Virus record (IMG/VR): IMGVR_UViG_3300031251_000023
Coordinates: 1 to 56,309 of that record
DNA length: 56,309 nucleotides
DNA from: a virus
Reading direction: 5' to 3' (one strand)
Shown here: in pieces, positions 5,216-55,627 of the stretch
Numbering within the stretch: the stretch's first letter is position 1
Layout of the letters: every line of letters starts with the position of its first letter
Program-made: the position numbers and the translations under genes
The notes under the pieces: generated by a model
What the model was told of the DNA's origin: nothing
Database searches by the model: none
The model's input: only the letters and a program-made list of their open reading frames with translations

Positions 5216-5698
5216 TCACACCCCCTCCGCCGTAAACGCCCGCCGCGCGCGCGGGCGCCGCTTCCTGACCACGATGTCGAAAGCGAGCCCGGCATGCGCG
5301 CCGCAATAAGGCGTCTCGCCAACCGCGCGTTCGCCGCAAAAGCGAAAATTCTCCAAATCGCGTGGATCGCCAATCGGCCAGCGACAATGCCAATCCCGCG
5401 CCGCGAACAGCGTCACGCCGCCATCGGGCGCGAGCGCCTCCACGACGACGACGACAGCCCGCGCCTCATCCGGCGAGCGCGAAACTTCCGCGATTTTTGG
5501 AGCCGGCGGCGCCTTCGGAATGCGCGCCGCGCGTGGCTTTTTCTCGCGGGGCCCTTCGCTAAGCCCCATCCGATCAATCTTGCCGATCACCGCGTTGCGC
5601 GTGAGGCCGCCGCCGAGCTCCGCCGCGATCTCCGCGCACGAAAACCCATCCGCCCAAAGCTTGCGCAATTGCTCGACGCGCTCGTCGGTCCAGCTCAT
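5216..5698 (-). CDS. gcrA: GcrA-family cell-cycle regulator
   Basis: GcrA works with sigma-70 RNA polymerase at promoters containing methylated GANTC sites and drives S-phase genes in Alphaproteobacteria. The N-terminus MSWTDERVEQLRKLWADG and the HTH segment LTRNAVIGKIDRMGLS are nearly textbook. The C-terminal RNA-polymerase-binding part is also present (CRWPIGDP, FCGE, YCGAHA). Length (160 aa) matches chromosomal GcrA. Its start overlaps the stop of the CtrA-like winged-helix gene (ATGA). A phage copy could redirect the host cell-cycle promoter programme or serve phage promoters; this is inference. Confidence 0.92.
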   Translation of the reverse strand: MSWTDERVEQLRKLWADGFSCAEIAAELGGGLTRNAVIGKIDRMGLSEGPREKKPRAARIPKAPPAPKIAEVSRSPDEARAVVVVVEALAPDGGVTLFAARDWHCRWPIGDPRDLENFRFCGERAVGETPYCGAHAGLAFDIVVRKRRPRARRAFTAEGV

Positions 5699-8478: not shown

Positions 8479-9281
8479 GATCCATCGCTCCCTTCGAAGG
8501 AGAAATCGCCTTGCCCGACGCCCGATTTTTTAAGCCGCGACGGCGGAACCCACCCCGGCATATGCCGCGCCGCGAGCAGCCGATCGGCCGGCTTAATAAA
8601 GCGCTCGCGGCAATCGGGCGGGATGATGAAGGTGGGGAAGAGATCGACATTTTCGACGAGCCGAACAGCTTCGCCGCGCTCGAATTGCCAGACGAACCAA
8701 GCATAGGAGGTTGCCGTCGAAAGCTTCGGGTCATAGCCGCCCTCGCACATAGCGACGCGCTCGGCGAAGGGCGCGAACAGCGTCGGCGGCGCGGTGTCGA
8801 ACACGCGTTCGTAACGGTCCTTGCCCTCGATCCAGACGGCCCGCAAAAGCATCGCGAGACCGCCGTCGCGCCCATCGAACAGCCCGAGCGCGGTTTCATA
8901 AAAATCGACCGCTAGCTCGAATGGCGGATTGGTGACGATCCAAACGCCTTCGTAATTGCTCGAAGGACGCGCGTCGCGAAAATCATAGGGAAGAACATTT
9001 AGCGCGGAGTCGTAAACCATGATGTCGGTCGCGAGAACCTCGCGCGCATATTCCTCGCAGACATCGGCCATGTGCCGCAGGCCCGCCGTCGGCTCCCAAA
9101 TGCTATTGATCGGCGTCTTCACGTCGAGTTGCGGCAGCACATATTCGAACAGCGCGCGCGTCGCCCAGGGCGGCGTCGGGAACAGCTCGTGCACGCGCCA
9201 CGGCGGCGGATTGTCGCCGCGATCCTTTTTCGAGCGCTTTTGCGCACGGACGGCTGTGTGGCCAAGCGGCAGTTGCGTCAC
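8475..9281 (-). CDS. N6-adenine methyltransferase-like protein
   Basis: 268 aa. It contains the adenine-methyltransferase catalytic motif NPPF (about residue 118, in VWIVTNPPFELAVDF) and an AdoMet-site-like segment IWEPTAGLRHMADV (about 61-75), less glycine-rich than usual. LFPTPPWATRALFEYVLP upstream of it is typical of small phage Dam-like enzymes. GTG at 9281 is chosen because GGAGGGG precedes it and it overlaps the upstream stop. It may methylate phage DNA against restriction, or be a degenerate relative given the weak motif I. Target site unknown. Confidence 0.7.
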   Translation of the reverse strand: MTQLPLGHTAVRAQKRSKKDRGDNPPPWRVHELFPTPPWATRALFEYVLPQLDVKTPINSIWEPTAGLRHMADVCEEYAREVLATDIMVYDSALNVLPYDFRDARPSSNYEGVWIVTNPPFELAVDFYETALGLFDGRDGGLAMLLRAVWIEGKDRYERVFDTAPPTLFAPFAERVAMCEGGYDPKLSTATSYAWFVWQFERGEAVRLVENVDLFPTFIIPPDCRERFIKPADRLLAARHMPGWVPPSRLKKSGVGQGDFSFEGSDGS

Positions 9282-10837: not shown

Positions 10838-11327
10838 TTACGAGAACTCCCGTGCTTTCCTACTCAAGACAGGAGGACGCACGTCACGCGAAACCCCGTG
10901 GGGACGGGGCCAGAACCAACCGGCGCGACGAACGGGGGCGGACGTCGCGCCGGCCAACCGACGCTTTTACAAAACGCGAAAACGAAACAAACAGCCGGGC
11001 TTCTATCCACGCGGGCCCGGCGCCGCGCTGCCGACCGACTCGGGGAAAGAGGCTTAAACCCCGCGCCGCGGAACCATCACCCTCCCAAAAGCCCCGCGCG
11101 GATGCGCGCCGCGCGGGGAAGTCAAGGGAGGAAACGCCCAAGGAGGGCTACGAAGCGAGGCGATCTCGCCGCGAACCTCGCGCGGGCATGAAACCGCGCG
11201 AAGAGGAGAAGCGCCGGAGGGCCGGCGCGAAAGGGAGCGCTCACGGGCTGTTTACCTCCGTGCGCGATGTCGAGGAGCGTCCGCCGCGAAGCCGCGCGAG
11301 GGCGGCGCGAAACAGGGAGACGAGACG
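10838..11327. other. 490-bp gene-free GC-rich segment with hairpins
   Basis: No credible gene on either strand. A plus-strand open frame through it translates to Arg/Glu/Lys-rich low complexity and is rejected. It holds the strong hairpin at 11092-11118, a second minus-strand stem at 10894-10909 (CCCCGT/ACGGGG then TTT), and a degenerate copy of the start leader at 11075-11092 followed by a 7-codon frame. It may be the remains of a deleted gene and the site where leftward transcription is controlled. Confidence 0.5.
11083..11118 (-). terminator. Strong hairpin, possible early-left terminator
   Basis: Perfect 10-bp inverted repeat CCCCGCGCGG / CCGCGCGGGG with a 7-nt loop (11092-11118). On the minus strand it is followed by CTTTTGGG. 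It would stop or pause leftward transcripts between the Cro-side genes and the replication genes, like lambda tL1. The short T-run makes termination uncertain. Confidence 0.5.
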
Positions 11328-32313: not shown

Positions 32314-34188
32314 TCAAGCGTCGTTGCCGGCGTCAGTCCTCAGATAGATCGTCACCCCAAGGAGGCTCGCATTGATTGCGAGTGTATCGTTCGTTGCATC
32401 ATCCGCCTTGCGGCGCACCTTAAAACATACGATATCCTCGGCCTGCGGCGATCCAGCGATCGTAATGGCGGACGATTCGGGAGACACGTAGCTCGTGTTC
32501 GTCGTCCCGCCAATGTCATTGACTTGCTGGACCGTGCCAAATGCCGCATCGAGCGCGTCTCCATCCGAGATCGCGACACCAGAAAAATCCCATGCCACCT
32601 TGAAATTGGTCGTCGTAGCGGCATGCGTCCACGCCGCGACGGCTGTAACCGTCCCCTCATCCCATGACTTCGGCATTCGGATCATGAATTGCGCGCTTTT
32701 GATCGTCGACGCATCGAAATCGAGTGTCTTGATCATAACCTTATTCGTGCTCGTCTCGACGCTACCCGCGGCGGGACCATTCGTCGTATTAGCGATCATC
32801 GCCGTCGCCGGAATCCAGATAGCCTGACGGCCATAAGGCGTCTGCGCTGCGGTCAATGCCAAGGGCGAGCCATTAATCATGGAGTAGCTCTTGCAGCGCC
32901 AATTCCCAGACCCAAGACTTTCGAACACGGCCTCGTCCCCGGCCGCGGTCGCGATATTCGCGCTTGTTGGCAGGATAAGGCTTGTGCCGTTATGCGTCAG
33001 CGTCAGGGCGCCGGTGAACCGCACGAAGCGCGTCGCGCCGGCGGCGACCGTGCCGAGCGCGGTGATCGTGGTCGTGCCGGAGACTTCTACGAGGTTCGAT
33101 GTCGCCGCTCCGATGTCCGTTGTCGTCGCCGACGAGACGGTTACGGCGCCTTTCCAATTGATCGCTCCGGTGGCCTGAACCGACCCGTCCTTCTTCAGGA
33201 AATCGCCGACGACAGCGCCGCTATCCTTCAGAAGTTTTCCAGTCGTTGCGTCAAACGCGGCAATGCGAGAATCGATCGCGCTTGACGGTCCTATTACGTC
33301 GCCAGCGCCGGCCCCATCCGCCCCCTTGTCGCCAGCGCGATCGAAAATGACCGCCAGCGTCTTGCCGTTCGCCGGAAGAGCAGTGCCGGCAATATAGGCG
33401 ACCGGAATCTTCCGATATCCAGTGCCATCGACGACGGCCCCGGCGACCTTGAATTTAAAGAAAACGGTCGATGAATCGACTTGCGTGAGCGTCAATTCGC
33501 CGCGACTGGCGCTATTCGTTGAATCGTCGAGGCTATCGAGCCATGCCGTGATGTCGGTCCCGCCAGATTCATTATTGTCGAAATAGAGATATGTCACGCT
33601 CGCGGGCGTCGCATTGTTGAACCGGATCACCCCTGAGCCAGGATCGGAATCCGTTACCGTCGTCGAGAACACCCAGGTGAGAGCAACGGTCGGGCCAGTC
33701 GGTCCCGTTGCGCCATCGCTCCCGTTGGCGCCCGCTGTTCCCTGCGGCCCCGTTCGGCCAGAAATCGAAATTTGCCAGTCCGTATGTGTTCCTGATCCGC
33801 CCACCGATGTAACCGTGACATCCAGCGTCGTTCCTGAATAGCCGGTGATTTGCCCGACCATCCAATTCGTATTTGGCGCGGCTCCAGATGCGATCAGGAT
33901 CGTCGATCCGACCGCGAATTGCTTGCCTGATTGCGTCGCGAACGTCGCCGATCCTAGGCTGATCGCATATGACGTGCTGGAGGTCGCGGATAAGGCCGCT
34001 GCCGATGCCGCCGCCGCCGATGCCGAAGCCGCCGCCGAGGTCGTCTCACGCGCCGCCGCCGGGACGATCAGCGCGGCGTTCTGCAGCGCGGGAATAAAAT
34101 TCGTCCGATGGCCGCCATTCTCAAAATCGGCGTCGGTCAGGGCGTTGAGCGCATCAACCGCGGCCTGTTCCTGCGTTGTCAAAGCCAT
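32314..34188 (-). CDS. Tail fibre with collagen-like segment
   Basis: 624 aa. The N-terminus MALTTQEQAAVDALNALTDA is followed by an Ala/Ser coiled region, then a collagen-like GPQGTAGANGSDGATGPTGP (about residues 149-168), and a long beta-rich shaft/head. Trimeric side or tip fibre mediating host attachment. Coupled (1-nt overlap) to the upstream baseplate gene. Confidence 0.78.
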   Translation of the reverse strand: MALTTQEQAAVDALNALTDADFENGGHRTNFIPALQNAALIVPAAARETTSAAASASAAAASAAALSATSSTSYAISLGSATFATQSGKQFAVGSTILIASGAAPNTNWMVGQITGYSGTTLDVTVTSVGGSGTHTDWQISISGRTGPQGTAGANGSDGATGPTGPTVALTWVFSTTVTDSDPGSGVIRFNNATPASVTYLYFDNNESGGTDITAWLDSLDDSTNSASRGELTLTQVDSSTVFFKFKVAGAVVDGTGYRKIPVAYIAGTALPANGKTLAVIFDRAGDKGADGAGAGDVIGPSSAIDSRIAAFDATTGKLLKDSGAVVGDFLKKDGSVQATGAINWKGAVTVSSATTTDIGAATSNLVEVSGTTTITALGTVAAGATRFVRFTGALTLTHNGTSLILPTSANIATAAGDEAVFESLGSGNWRCKSYSMINGSPLALTAAQTPYGRQAIWIPATAMIANTTNGPAAGSVETSTNKVMIKTLDFDASTIKSAQFMIRMPKSWDEGTVTAVAAWTHAATTTNFKVAWDFSGVAISDGDALDAAFGTVQQVNDIGGTTNTSYVSPESSAITIAGSPQAEDIVCFKVRRKADDATNDTLAINASLLGVTIYLRTDAGNDA

Positions 34189-49567: not shown

Positions 49568-50797
49568 TCACTGCGTCAGGTATTTGACGGGGTGCGTTCC
49601 GGCGTCGACAAGCTGGCCGTCCCAACGCTGGAAGGCAAGGAATCCGGTCTGGTTGTAGTCGGCATAGCGTTCGGTCAGGCGCAGCACCTGGACGCCAGCG
49701 ACGCGGCGGATGAAGTATTTCGAGAAGTCGCCGAAGGCAACGGGCTTCTTGCCGGAGCCGATAACATCCATGCTCTGATTTATGATGTAGGGATAGCCGC
49801 CGAGGCGATCCGGCTCCTTGAACTGCAGGCCGGACGTCCAGAGATATTCACCCTCGCCATCTTTCAGTTTCTTCAACGCCTTCAGCGTTGAATCCGCGAA
49901 CATGAACTTCGCATTCGTGCGATAGGCCGGGTCGACGCTATGCGGGAGGTCGAAAGCGAACTCATCGGCCGTGATCGCCGTGGCGCTCGCCGCCGTCACG
50001 CCGAGAGTAGCCGCCGTCACGACTCCGGTCGGCTTGCTGGCGCCGTCGCCGGTCGTGAAGTGATCGTTCACGATGCGGGCAAGGCGCGTCCCAAGCTTCT
50101 GCGCGAGATAGGAGTCGAGGTTGAACGCCGAATCCTGCAAGAGCTGGTTCGAAACAAGAACGAGCTTCGACGTATAGGTATAGGCGTTCAGGGTGACGGC
50201 GCCGAAAGCGATATCCTGATTGCCCGTCTGCGTGTTCTCGGTGAGAATCGCGCCCTTGTTCGTCGTGTCGTTGTCGGTCGGGATCGGCAGAGCGTTGCCG
50301 GTCGACGTGTCGAACACGAAGGCGTTTTCCAGCATCCCGCCGTATGCGAGCTGCGCGCTCTCGATCTGGCCGTAGAAGCCTTCCGGGACGGTATATCCGC
50401 CGGCCGTATCGGGAACGGTTCCGAGCGCCGCGCGGAAGCCGCCCTGTGGGTTCTGGATGCGCTGTTGGGCGATCGATCGCTGTTCATCGGTCATATTGGC
50501 GAGGCCGAAGCGCAGATAGGCGCCGAACGCCTCGTTCTCCAGCGCATTGCGTTCCGCTGCTTCGTCCTTCGAGATGCCTTCGCGCCCGGCGCGGCGTTCG
50601 ATGCGCGCGGAAAGATGCGCCTCTTCGCCTTCCAGCCGTTCAACGCGATCGATATCCGCCTTCATCTTATCGGCGGACGCCATCATCTCGTCGAACTTGG
50701 CGCTGATCTCATCGGAGATCGCGCCATCGGACGGGAGCAACGCGCGAGCGTCCTCGATCAGCTTCGCGCGCTGCTCGCGCAACACCTTGCTTTTCAT
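49568..50797 (-). CDS. Major capsid protein, HK97 fold
   Basis: 409 aa. Residues 1-105 are a coiled-coil delta/scaffold domain (REQRAKLIEDARALLPSDGA). The HK97 core follows: TAGGYTVPEGFYGQIESAQL, VLVSNQLLQDSAFNLDSYLA, FTTGDGASKPTGV, then FKEPDRLGGYPYIIN and VAFGDFSKYFIRRVAG. The delta domain is removed by the upstream ClpP-type protease. A 0.94-kb gene-free segment separates it from that protease. Confidence 0.95.
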   Translation of the reverse strand: MKSKVLREQRAKLIEDARALLPSDGAISDEISAKFDEMMASADKMKADIDRVERLEGEEAHLSARIERRAGREGISKDEAAERNALENEAFGAYLRFGLANMTDEQRSIAQQRIQNPQGGFRAALGTVPDTAGGYTVPEGFYGQIESAQLAYGGMLENAFVFDTSTGNALPIPTDNDTTNKGAILTENTQTGNQDIAFGAVTLNAYTYTSKLVLVSNQLLQDSAFNLDSYLAQKLGTRLARIVNDHFTTGDGASKPTGVVTAATLGVTAASATAITADEFAFDLPHSVDPAYRTNAKFMFADSTLKALKKLKDGEGEYLWTSGLQFKEPDRLGGYPYIINQSMDVIGSGKKPVAFGDFSKYFIRRVAGVQVLRLTERYADYNQTGFLAFQRWDGQLVDAGTHPVKYLTQ

Positions 50798-50811
50798 ATT
50801 CAGATTTCCTT

Positions 50812-51739
50812 TTCAAAACCGGCGTCTCACGATGAGCCGCGGGATGGATAACCGTCACGGAGCGCTAGCGACCTTGCCCAAGGGTCGGAAAGGGCGCGTT
50901 CGGCTTGCCCGATTGCTTCCGACTCGCGGGGGTCCGCTCCCCGTGTCCGCTATCGATCGGGGCGTGTTTGCCCTGTGCGCCGACGCAAGCAGTGGAGGTT
51001 AGCGGACCGGAAACATGGTGAGCGACGGGCTGTGCCCCTACGGTCTTGCCGTCCCTAAAAGGTGCTGGAGGCCTCGCGAGCCGGACCAGATCGCTCGGGG
51101 TATTTGAATTCGAGCGAGGCGGTCGCTACGCCGCCTGTCCGCAATGTCCGGTCCTAGGCCGCCGTGCCACCGCGCTTCATCGCGCAATGGACCCAGGCCG
51201 CGCCGTTGATTTCACCCGTTACAGATGCGGGGACCGTAGCCGCGTGTCTGCTTTCCACGCCGCCGCTCGAAACATGACTGCCCATCCGGGCGAATTATCG
51301 CGCTTTCAGCTTCCTGTTGGAACGCCTCGCGCGCCGGATTTTGCTTTTCGCCTTCCCCTCCGGAATCCGGGAAATAAAGGGGTGCTATCGCCGGCCATCG
51401 CTTCCGGCACGCTTCGTTGCCCATTCGGGCGAAACTTCGCTCGCGGCCCATTCGCCGCGAGCAGGCGTCATTCCGCGTGACGCGCGCCTACTCCGAACCC
51501 CGTCCGGGCCGCCTTGCGAGGCCGCGCCCGGATTTGCCCCCGGTTCGTTTCGCCCTGGGATTCAAAAAATGCCGACTTGTCCGATTGCCCCACATGCAAG
51601 CGCCTGCCAGCGCCGCCCCTCTTTCGATCGGACCGTGTTTGCGCTGCTGGCCGGCCAGAACAGCGGGACTCGAGGGGCTGGAAAGTTGAAAGATCACGCC
51701 GATCGCCGTCAGCCGGTTACGGCGGACCCGCTCGATTCA
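50812..51739 (-). ncRNA. Candidate large structured RNA between protease and capsid genes
   Basis: About 0.93 kb inside the head operon with no credible gene on either strand. The minus-strand transcript can form many strong hairpins: GCTCGCGGC/GCCGCGAGC (51439-51462), two tetraloop copies of GCCC-NNNN-GGGC (51280-51291 and 51419-51430), CCGGGC/GCCCGG (51504-51531), CCCC..CCGG/CCGG..GGGG (51355-51382) and GCGTCA/TGACGC (51465-51483). Segment 51000-51008 can pair with either 50931-50938 or 50945-50952. Two diverged repeats share CAAACACG-NN-CCGATCGA. A degraded insertion is the alternative. Confidence 0.45.
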
Positions 51740-52474
51740 TCATTCGCGCTCGGCTATCGCGAGCCGCGTTTTCATCGCGCGCACCTTGCTTTCGAGCGAT
51801 GCGTTGGCGCCAGAGTCCGGTTGTTCCGTCGTCTCCGAGCTGTTGGAGATTTCATCGACGAGACCGAATGCCTTTGCCTCGTCGGCCGTGAACCATGTGC
51901 CGTCGTTCTTGCCTTCGCCTTCCATCATGGCGAGGCATTCGGTGGGCGTCTTGCCGGTCTTCGCCGCATAGATACCGGAGAGCTGCGCATCGATCTTCTC
52001 GAGGATCGTCGCTGTCTCGAGCATATCCAATTTATTTCCGATAGATAGGCCCCATGCACAATGTGCCATCATGAGGGAATTTTCCGACATGACACAGCGA
52101 GCGCCGGCGAGCGCGATGAAAGAAGCGGCCGATGCGGCGATCCCCTCCACAACGCAGGTGACATCGCCCTGATGCTGTTTCAATGCGTTGTAGATCGCGA
52201 GTCCGTCGAAGACGTCTCCACCGGGGCTGTTGATGCGGACGCGGATGGATGAAGAGGAGATAGCGCCAAGCTCGGCGATGAATTTCTTGGCAGTGACGCC
52301 GAAATATCCGATCTCGTCATAGAGCATGATATCCGTTGACCCATCCTCGAGCGCTTTGATGGCGATCTTTGCCTTGGCGCGCGGCTGCGGGGTTCGATTG
52401 TTGAAGCGGTCGCTCCATTGGCGGCGAGCCGTTTCCTTGTCGAGACGGGCGAAAATGAGCGGCTTCGTCATCAT
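51740..52474 (-). CDS. Prohead protease, ClpP/S14-type
   Basis: 244 aa. Catalytic Ser in GIAASAASFIALAG, His in LMMAHCAWG, Asp near GLVDEIS; IRVRINSPGGDVFDGLAIYN is the ClpP-family oxyanion strand. It matures the capsid by removing the delta domain. Start ATG (52474) overlaps the portal stop. C-terminal tail of about 30 residues is charged and may aid assembly. Confidence 0.92.
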   Translation of the reverse strand: MMTKPLIFARLDKETARRQWSDRFNNRTPQPRAKAKIAIKALEDGSTDIMLYDEIGYFGVTAKKFIAELGAISSSSIRVRINSPGGDVFDGLAIYNALKQHQGDVTCVVEGIAASAASFIALAGARCVMSENSLMMAHCAWGLSIGNKLDMLETATILEKIDAQLSGIYAAKTGKTPTECLAMMEGEGKNDGTWFTADEAKAFGLVDEISNSSETTEQPDSGANASLESKVRAMKTRLAIAERE

Positions 52475-53784
52475 GGCGTCGGCCTCGGGTCGGTTGGCTG
52501 TTGCGGCTGGCGTTTCGGCGGCCCAGCGGGTTCTTTCCCGCCGCTGTCCGTGGACGCTTCGGCGAGCGCATCTAGAGACCGCATCGCGCCCTGCATATAG
52601 AGCTTATCTCCGGGCTCTCCGGCCGATGGAAGGTTCAACTTTTGCCGCGCTTCATTCGGCTTGAGGATCGCCGTTCCGGCCAGCTTCGAATAGAGTTCCG
52701 CCTTCGCCTTCGCGTCCATCACGATCAGGCCTTCGCGGTCGAACTCGGCGCGATATCTTGTTCCGAGAAAGAGCTTCCGGTTGAACTCGCCTTCGATGCG
52801 ACGAAGCAACGGATTGATCGTCGTGATCTGAAACCCGAGCATGATCTGTTCAATGCCCGCGCCCCAGGCGGTCATGTCGGCGTTCTCGTTCAGCAGCATC
52901 GCCGGAACGCCAAAGATGTTGCATAACTGCGCGGTGGAATAGCGACGGGTGGCGAGAGTTTCGGCGTCGACTGGCGAAATCTGCGTCTGGACCCAACTCG
53001 TTCCGGAATCGACCCATAATGTTTTACCGGCGTTTCCGACGCCGCTGTAATGGTTCTCGAACTGTTGCCGCATGCGGTTGAACGCCGCCGGCGAAATGCC
53101 TTCCTTCGCCGTGCCGATGCCGCTCGGCCTCACGCCATTCGAATGCAGTCGGGCCGTGAATTCCTCCATCGCGAGAGATGTTCCAATCGCCTGGCGTCCG
53201 ACGGCGGAAATGACGGAGAGCCCGCGCAGCCCATCAAATCCGAGACCTGGGATATGGATCATGTCCTCTTGATCGACGATCTCCGATCCATCGTCGAGGC
53301 GGACGCGATAGGCGAGGCGCCCATCCTCCGTCCTGAAAGGCTCAACCTGCCACGGCAACAGCGGCACGAAGCCGACAATTCGATGCGCGTTATCATATTC
53401 GATGATGCTGTAATGATTGCCCCATAGAAGACAATGCACCATCATGATCTCGTTCCAGACGAACGCGGTCATGAAATCATTCGGCGCGTCGCGGAGCAGT
53501 GGAAACGCGCGATGGGAAACCGCCAGCTTCCGGCCGGCGTCCTCTAAATGATAGACGTTCAGATCGAGCGAAGCGACGATTCCCGACAAAATGGAGACGC
53601 AACGGAACACATCCACGCTTCGCAGGGACGAACGCTCGTTGACATGCGGCCCCGCCATCGTTGGACCGCCGCCGATGATAATCGCGAGCGTTTCCTGATT
53701 GATCGGGACATTCGGATTTTCGAGCGACGCGCTGAATGTGGGCTCCCGGCGCTCCGGAGCCTCGCGTTTCGAGAAAGGCCACAT
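52471..53784 (-). CDS. Portal protein, HK97 family
   Basis: 437 aa forming the dodecameric DNA channel at the head vertex. Typical features: SVDVFRCVSILSGIVASLDL, GNHYSIIEYDNAHRIVGFVP, LNENADMTAWGAGIEQIMLG. C-terminal Pro/Gln-rich tail. Lies 7 nt after the large terminase gene and overlaps the protease start, the standard head-gene order. Confidence 0.95.
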   Translation of the reverse strand: MWPFSKREAPERREPTFSASLENPNVPINQETLAIIIGGGPTMAGPHVNERSSLRSVDVFRCVSILSGIVASLDLNVYHLEDAGRKLAVSHRAFPLLRDAPNDFMTAFVWNEIMMVHCLLWGNHYSIIEYDNAHRIVGFVPLLPWQVEPFRTEDGRLAYRVRLDDGSEIVDQEDMIHIPGLGFDGLRGLSVISAVGRQAIGTSLAMEEFTARLHSNGVRPSGIGTAKEGISPAAFNRMRQQFENHYSGVGNAGKTLWVDSGTSWVQTQISPVDAETLATRRYSTAQLCNIFGVPAMLLNENADMTAWGAGIEQIMLGFQITTINPLLRRIEGEFNRKLFLGTRYRAEFDREGLIVMDAKAKAELYSKLAGTAILKPNEARQKLNLPSAGEPGDKLYMQGAMRSLDALAEASTDSGGKEPAGPPKRQPQQPTDPRPTP

Positions 53785-53791
53785 CAGGGCG

Positions 53792-55627
53792 CTATTCCGC
53801 CGCTAGGTCGAAAATTGACGGTTTATATCGTTTTGGCTCCTGCGTTTCCGCGACGCTCTCTCCCCATGACGCCGCATCGTCGAAAATGGAGCCGCCAGTT
53901 TGTGCTTCCGGGTTGAAACTCATCAGATGCACCGCGTTGAAAAGAGCCATTAGCGGATCGACCTTGCCGAGACCCGCTTCGTCGCGGGCAGCGCGAATCG
54001 CCGTCGTGGTTTGGATGATCCGCAGATTGCCGACGCACCAATCGAGCAGCGGTTGCGCGCCATGGCGAAAACGCCGGTCGGCTAGCATGCGCTCGACCGT
54101 CTTGATCGCGCCCATCAGGCCGATACCCTGGCGCACCGCCTCCAGCAGGCTCGCATCCTGCGTTACGCCGATTTTGTCGAGCGCGTCGACGATCGCGCCG
54201 ATGCCCGCCGCGTCGACGCCGGTCTTGGCCAAGAGACCCATATCGCGCACCCGGACGATGAGGTCCACGAGATATTGGATGTCGGCCGGCAGTGCGCCAG
54301 GCGCATCGTCGGCCGGCAGCACGCCCTCGAGCAGCTTGACGAGGGCTGGATCCTCGTCAATCTCGTCCTCGTCAAGATGGCCGAAGCGGAACACGGTGAG
54401 GTCTCCAGCCTGTTTGAACTGGAGATAATTCTCGGCGTTGGCCTTGCGCCGCCATGCGCCCACCGTCGAAATCAACGCATGCGCCCAGCCAAGCCAGCGG
54501 CCCGTGTCGCGCTCCCGGCCGATCACCGCGACGCCTAACAGGTCGTCGAGGCCGCCGCCGTCGATGCCGACCGTAACGACCTCGCTGCGTCGAAGCAGCT
54601 CGTCGAGCGTGAGATCGCGCTCGACGCCACGCGCCCAGATTTGTGCGCCGGCCCAGCCGTCGAGCCGCTGCGATTGGCCGATCTGGACGTTGAGATGCTT
54701 GGCGAAGAAGCTGTTGAGCTGCGCCCGTCCGGCGCGCCCGGCCTCGGCATAGGCGGAGAGCAGATAGTTCTTCTCGACCGAGGCGCCAAGGTTTGGATTG
54801 GTGACGCCCCAATACTCCGGTTGCCGGAACTTTTCTCCCTTAAGCAAATCCGGCGGAAACTCATAGAGGACGCCGAGCTTTTCCGGGGCGATGGTCTTGC
54901 CGTCCCTGATATCGCGGAATTCGGCCAGCTTTTGCGCGAATACGCCCGTCGGCGGGCGATCCGACATGGTGGAGAGATAGATCACGAATCCCTCCGGCCG
55001 AGAAGCGAGACCGCCCGCCGCCTCGAGCAGGATATTATCGGCGGCGGCGCGCTGGCCGAAAACATGCAGCTCGTCGACCAGCAGCCCGATGGTTTTCTTG
55101 CCGGTGACGGTTTCCGAATCCGCCGCGATGACCTTGATAAAGGCTCCCGTGTTGCGGTGCTCGATCACGCGGCCGGCCGCGCTTTTCATGATGGTCGAGA
55201 GCACCGGATGCGCGCGCACCATGTCGCGCATCGGAATGAAGCTGTTGTCCGCGACTTCCTTGGTCGGCGCCAAAACGTAGAACTCTCCGGACTCGCGCCA
55301 ATTGCGCGCGAGCGCTGTCAGCATCGTGCCGGCGGCGAGCGTGCTCTTGGAATTTTTCTTGCTGATCAGCAGGAGGAAATGCTGGATCAGCCGGCGGCCG
55401 GACACCGGATCATAGGCGCCGAAGATCGCCGAGACGAAATCGATCACCCAAGGCCGCGACGCCTCGCCGAATGTTGGACGGCCAACCGCGTCGACGATCT
55501 GGAGCGACTTGAAGACATCGAGCGCCGCGGCGGCCTCGGCCGGGAAGAGCGGGTCGAAGGGAACGAGGCTACGGCCCTGGACGATGCGTTCTTGCCAGTC
55601 CAGGCAGGCGGTGGACCAGCTGATCAT
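53792..55627 (-). CDS. terL: Terminase large subunit
   Basis: 611 aa packaging motor of the Terminase_1 type. Walker A variant ISKKNSKST (88-96), Walker B GLLVDELHVFG (181-191), coupling region LSTMSDRPP, and C-terminal nuclease start VTVGIDGGGLDDLLGVAVIG with metal-binding acids. It translocates DNA into the prohead and cuts concatemers, presumably at cos with the HNH partner. Start overlaps the small subunit stop. Confidence 0.95.
   Translation of the reverse strand: MISWSTACLDWQERIVQGRSLVPFDPLFPAEAAAALDVFKSLQIVDAVGRPTFGEASRPWVIDFVSAIFGAYDPVSGRRLIQHFLLLISKKNSKSTLAAGTMLTALARNWRESGEFYVLAPTKEVADNSFIPMRDMVRAHPVLSTIMKSAAGRVIEHRNTGAFIKVIAADSETVTGKKTIGLLVDELHVFGQRAAADNILLEAAGGLASRPEGFVIYLSTMSDRPPTGVFAQKLAEFRDIRDGKTIAPEKLGVLYEFPPDLLKGEKFRQPEYWGVTNPNLGASVEKNYLLSAYAEAGRAGRAQLNSFFAKHLNVQIGQSQRLDGWAGAQIWARGVERDLTLDELLRRSEVVTVGIDGGGLDDLLGVAVIGRERDTGRWLGWAHALISTVGAWRRKANAENYLQFKQAGDLTVFRFGHLDEDEIDEDPALVKLLEGVLPADDAPGALPADIQYLVDLIVRVRDMGLLAKTGVDAAGIGAIVDALDKIGVTQDASLLEAVRQGIGLMGAIKTVERMLADRRFRHGAQPLLDWCVGNLRIIQTTTAIRAARDEAGLGKVDPLMALFNAVHLMSFNPEAQTGGSIFDDAASWGESVAETQEPKRYKPSIFDLAAE

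Follow-up and report, generated by a model that had tools for sequence, protein, structure and literature searches.

Phage noncoding sequence is seldom annotated. Among the structured phage RNAs that have been described, GOLLD and ROOL form homo-oligomeric RNA cages. The put RNA of phage HK022 is about 70 nt long and has two stem-loops (PMC9378689), and the variable linker regions of GOLLD can contain tRNAs (PMC12286853). Here we analyse a gene-free segment in the head operon of a virus, IMG/VR record IMGVR_UViG_3300031251_000023, the whole 56,309-nt stretch of which we call the window. The genes for TerL (53792-55627), the portal protein (52471-53784), a ClpP-type head maturation protease (51740-52474; PF00574) and an HK97-type major capsid protein (49568-50797; PF05065) all lie on the minus strand, and the 4-nt gene overlap that the initial annotation ascribed to this operon is seen between protease and portal. 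The gene-free segment of about 0.93 kb that it reported between protease and capsid is borne out as 942 nt (50798-51739); its sense strand is minus, which corrects that annotation. Elsewhere in the window (11078-11155, minus) lies a suhB/mmgR sRNA (Rfam RF00519, 46.5 bits); since this is a typical alphaproteobacterial sRNA, an alphaproteobacterial host is indicated.

None of the ORFs in the gap carries a coding signal. GC content differs strongly between codon phases in both flanking genes and is flat inside 50798-51739, and the gap ORFs belong to no family in Pfam or PHROG, the one sub-threshold match being a chance one. Searches of the gap for tRNA, tmRNA and Rfam families found none, and BLASTN of the gap segment against phages and plasmids gave no match. 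Substitutions between the window and a second phage, G306, are spread evenly across the three phases, so that no codon phase is seen, and the indels measure 1-5 nt.

The initial annotation had drawn attention to strong, GC-clamped hairpins. These exist, but their strength is not evidence on its own, since a GC content of 63-64% yields such hairpins anyway: the minimum free energy of the segment is not lower than that of dinucleotide shuffles (z of 0.09 and -0.45 on the two strands). Thermodynamic stability was therefore dropped as evidence for an RNA, and the significance of the hairpins comes from conservation instead. Apart from the mutually exclusive pairings of 51000-51008, which are conjectural, the individual elements that had been singled out are present, namely two GCCC-tetraloop-GGGC elements (around 51425 and 51286), a perfect 9-bp stem (GCTCGCGGC/GCCGCGAGC, around 51440-51464) and a unit of about 90 nt in two diverged copies (71% over 49 nt, 50947-50995 vs 51618-51666). 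The 9-bp stem is kept in the window, in G306 and in a third phage, L290.

Along the minus strand we distinguish the modules A, B, C, E1, E2 and A'. Module A (51560-51690) comprises a hairpin, GCAAACACG and a GUCCGAU..AUCGGAC helix closing a variable loop. Module B (51427-51555) has the closing helix GGGCGAAAC/GUUUCGCCC in the window, a GAACC..GGUUCGGAGUAGGCGC core and a 9-bp GCUCGCGGC hairpin, and module C (51275-51432) is a conserved stretch with a GCCC-4-GGGC hairpin at each end. E1 (51109-51271) and E2 (51020-51096) come next, and beside the capsid gene lies A' (50885-50995), a diverged second copy of A with the helix CCCGAU/AUCGGG, in which one pair is compensated relative to A (U-A to C-G).

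The order and strand of A-B-C-E1-E2 (51016-51690, minus) are identical in G306 (L277) and L290, with about 78-89% identity to the window and no codon periodicity; by computational comparison, these modules are conserved without coding. In the window they are flanked by protease and capsid, in G306 by two small head genes, and in L290 by TerL and a gpW-type adaptor. The head genes of the three phages are non-homologous, and a block elsewhere is homologous (window 1.3-3.4 kb, 85%), so either the island was kept while the head genes around it were exchanged, or the island moved. It is dispensable for head building, since L002, the closest phage found by capsid (85% identity), has a 66-nt gap here and no island. 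Gaps of other relatives at this place are mostly 54-127 nt, and small ORFs account for at least part of the longer ones (197-445 nt).

The initial annotation had proposed collecting homologous protease-capsid gaps and testing them for compensatory change. That closest gap is just 66 nt long; the change sought is found in E1 and E2 and, among the predicted A-B pairs, at 2 of 83 only. The folds of A, B and C, drawn from three closely similar copies, are weakly supported by these sequences. Module B is conserved in G306 and L290, and a B-like core occurs in L308 and in L285, there after E2. Other matches to the B pattern (L303-L307, L309 and L310) were rejected as chance, the real ones being those in L285, L308 and G306 only; likewise, of the four contigs besides the window that matched the A pattern, two (L288 and L289) were discarded as chance matches because they have no closing helix.

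E1 was recognised from one exact 27-nt match in related phage records, at an unrelated position. Its reading as a shared protein motif (ERRRGKQTR) was rejected, as the match is the P1/P2 part of E1. The element is built of the helices P1, P2 and P4 and a hypervariable arm, P3. The 5' side of P1 ends in CGG and the 3' side is CCG plus the other P1 strand (UUCGAGCGG/UCGCUCGAA in the window). In the aligned loci, P2 is GCGU-GGAAAGCAGAC-ACGC with the conserved loop GGAAAGCAGAC, and P4 is GCCGG-AGUAGCGM-CCGGC, its conserved loop AGUAGCGM containing UAGCG. P3 spans about 50-170 nt without common sequence among loci. The window copy has every part that defines the family (P1, P2 with its loop GGAAAGCAGAC, a variable P3, and P4 with the UAGCG loop), and the loci share only this compact element, with nothing else in common within 1.5 kb.

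In an alignment of 41 sequences, whose loci were chosen with a pairing filter, 97.6% of cells pair and 132 cells show double-sided compensatory change, against 36 in shuffles (0 of 500 shuffles reach 132). When the 3' side is shifted along by one, two or three columns, pairing falls to 32-44%, and covariation is well above shuffles in P1 and P4. Because these loci were pre-selected by pairing, two unfiltered tests were run. In the first, P1' was located by complementarity alone, and 29 of 34 loci had UAGCG where the offset predicted it, against none in five shuffled sets. In the second, loci were found via P4 alone and P1 by complementarity; here P2 covaries (GCGG/CCGC, GCAC/GUGC, GCGU/ACGU and GCGC/GCGC) around the conserved loop, so that neither P2 nor its loop can be put down to the word used in the first search. 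Against the E1 covariance model the window copy scores 80.2 bits (E=4.9e-15), its sequence being in the training alignment; outside that alignment, L277 scores 78.3 bits, L290 79.2 and phage POI1126 77.4. Folding of the whole element gives a mean z of -1.6 against shuffles.

The P3 arm folds without excess over shuffles (mean z -0.25), and across 98 arms no 8-mer is common to more than 4. In L245 and L254 the arm contains a tRNA at Rfam gathering score; L177, L192, L205 and L320 have only a tRNA T-arm-like sequence there. A sigma70-type promoter (score at least 9) is placed to start an RNA at P1 in about 17 of 95 E1 loci. In 13 loci the distance from the start of the −10 box to the core is 16-17 nt; immediate neighbours excepted, any other single offset is seen in at most two loci, so the predicted RNA start is the first P1 pair. 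Such a promoter is not universal in the family, and the window copy has none at the usual place.

The 20-mer CGGCGGCGTGGAAAGCAGAC, taken from the 27-nt match, was counted in at least 119 stretches of viral contigs, many more than chance would give for a word of that length, and the family extends to well over 100 IMG/VR contigs. Five annotated phages carry it as well (Pseudomonas phages PotUPM1, D14H, Persinger and Orimi01, and Ochrobactrum phage POI1126), where it is unannotated or lies beneath small hypothetical ORFs; E1 is thus open to laboratory study. It was found in 2 of 150 Pseudomonadota genomes, and plasmids and E. coli genomes gave no match at the search sensitivity used. A literature search that left subscription journals largely uncovered found no published description. 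E1 is mostly single-copy (42 of 47 phage records); one 53-kb record, G456, has two strong copies (8697-8852 and 33335-33481) with differing arms. Its neighbours are diverse, including antiterminator, terminase, head, integrase and recombination genes. By a simple gene caller, about 46 loci have E1 and the following gene on one strand and about 26 have them on opposite strands, and in 15 loci E1 is antisense to both neighbours; because neighbours and orientation vary, no partner can be read from context. One E1-bearing contig, L171, also contains an int-alpA RNA (RF02996) at 5542-5608 (minus).

E2 is a 77-nt multibranched element found in at least about a dozen phages and prophages. The window copy shows the five-helix fold, with P1 (GAGCGAU/GUCGCUC) enclosing four inner helices, and the conserved GGCUCGCRAGGCC and UAGGGGC. 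Six pairs show compensatory change among 11 sequences; computationally, then, both E1 and E2 form base-paired folds. In L279 the E2 halves lie on the minus strand at about 4517-4482 and 4092-4057, 3' half first and some 390 nt apart, apparently a circularly permuted RNA in which, from the sequence, P1 could still form and the fold be kept. In L146 (1501-1583) and L282 (6566-6648), E2 follows a coding sequence judged GcrA-like by eye alone; a reading frame runs across E2 there without a stop, as though the element had been inserted into a gene. E2 was nevertheless rejected as coding, as several copies, that of the window included, carry stops.

We consider it probable that the gap is a noncoding-RNA island, made up of the conserved structured modules A, B, C, E1, E2 and A', all on the sense strand of the late head operon. 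The modules would be transcribed within a long late transcript and fold during transcription, and E1 at least may be cut from that transcript as a stable small RNA. Release as a small RNA is suggested by the promoters that E1 has elsewhere, with the predicted start at the first base of the closing helix; as the window copy is without the usual promoter, its release from the operon transcript would need a putative processing step. E1 is probably a scaffold, in which P1, P2 and P4 would form a multi-helix junction. Its two conserved loops might dock with each other or with a shared partner, and P3, in some cases an entire tRNA, may carry phage-specific cargo or a recognition sequence.

The modules might instead be cis-acting leader elements that yield no free RNA but protect the capsid portion of the polycistronic late mRNA, direct its processing or adjust its translation. 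In several phages the end of E2 is 17-71 nt from a start codon downstream; the gene concerned is, for example, tail tube-like in L145 and encodes a gpW-type head-tail adaptor in L290. A CUU-NGGC-AAG hairpin also lies shortly upstream of the capsid ATG in the window (50867-50887, minus; CGACC(C)UU-GGGC-AAGGUCG) and in relatives. It is common to the capsid 5' regions of 18 listed relative loci, in 13 distinct hairpin sequences, and has the general form NNNC(C)UU-NGGC-AAGNNN across many relatives; its distance to the ATG is 37-69 nt in the relatives listed, against about 90 nt in the window. Upstream of the capsid gene, L092, L094, L101, L105, L137 and also L097 share another conserved element, GGCGTGCGGGCATCCCGCCCCGCGCT; in most of them a hairpin resembling a terminator and a T-run come next. 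What weighs against a leader function is that E1 and E2 of the window stand 220-310 nt away from the capsid ATG, and that E1 elsewhere often has its own promoter and in the 15 loci mentioned opposes both neighbours. We regard this explanation as improbable, though far from negligible. E1 of the window could act in cis; for E2 and the leader hairpin, action in cis is a serious rival and may hold alongside the RNA island.

The initial annotation had also considered a single large, ornate RNA. Its structured phage RNA region is supported, with noncoding homologues in two phages, covariation in E1 and E2 and no Rfam match. In the reading as a single large RNA, E1 and E2 would be domains of one GOLLD/ROOL-like molecule of about 0.7-0.9 kb, consistent with its size, with the collinearity of A-B-C-E1-E2 in three phages and with tRNAs in variable regions, as in GOLLD linkers (PMC12286853). 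Yet other phages have E1, E2 and B separately, alone or differently combined, so the modules are separable and the gap looks like a row of them, with E1 at least forming an RNA element by itself elsewhere; the Rfam models of GOLLD and ROOL are unmatched. We judge one large RNA to be unlikely.

Still less can be said for E1 as a nascent RNA that, like put in HK022, acts in cis to make the polymerase resistant to terminators. E1 often lies near operon starts and repressor or antiterminator genes, with phrog_6386 upstream in 4 of 78 loci, but its four-helix plan with a hypervariable arm differs from the two stem-loops in about 70 nt of put (PMC9378689), and in many loci it is antisense to its neighbours; we find such a role very doubtful. 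A structured DNA element, serving as a packaging, replication or recombination site, would suit the usual single copy per phage record (42 of 47) but neither the promoters aligned to P1 nor the roughly 2:1 excess of G-U over other mismatches among the non-Watson-Crick cells of P1 and P4, and is highly improbable. To the reading that the initial annotation had set against its own, a decayed gene or insertion sequence, we give virtually no credence: the closest relative's 66-nt spacer makes the segment look inserted or expanded, but no protein-family likeness and no codon periodicity were found, and the noncoding sequence is about 78-89% conserved in other phages.

Within the RNA island that we favour, it is a tentative proposal that E1 is an undescribed, widespread phage scaffold RNA, a general platform in unrelated phages with an invariant core and an interchangeable, fast-evolving arm. 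If so, the platform could, for example, counter host defences that target RNA or serve as an adaptable regulator, and in the window it would be integrated among several such RNAs inside the head operon. One unannotated gap leads to an RNA family that is present in many phages and many environments and missing from Rfam. Combining a constant core with a freely varying arm is unusual as a design, and raises the testable question of what phages gain from a fixed scaffold with variable cargo.

Over E1 and E2, Rfam 15 gave chance-level matches only (E 1-10) and none at gathering score. Its small structured RNAs, several of them phage-borne (C4 antisense RNA, int-alpA, skipping-rope and others), are similar in kind and differ in being unmatched by E1 and E2 at that score. 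The GOLLD and ROOL covariance models also remain unmatched at gathering score, in line with the initial annotation, which recognised the segment as neither. ROOL resembles the island as a large structured RNA of phages and prophages, but differs in size and build as well as in its model. GOLLD is likewise a noncoding RNA region of phages and prophages, of about 0.8 kb, with tRNA-bearing variable regions (PMC12286853); here, in contrast, there are several separable modules, and E1 alone is mostly about 100-250 nt. HK022 put is likewise a compact phage RNA that lies close to early promoters and needs unpaired elements to function. In structure, however, E1 departs from a cis-acting, two-stem RNA of about 70 nt at early promoters: put has no hypervariable arm, whereas E1 joins P1, P2 and P4 to a variable P3.
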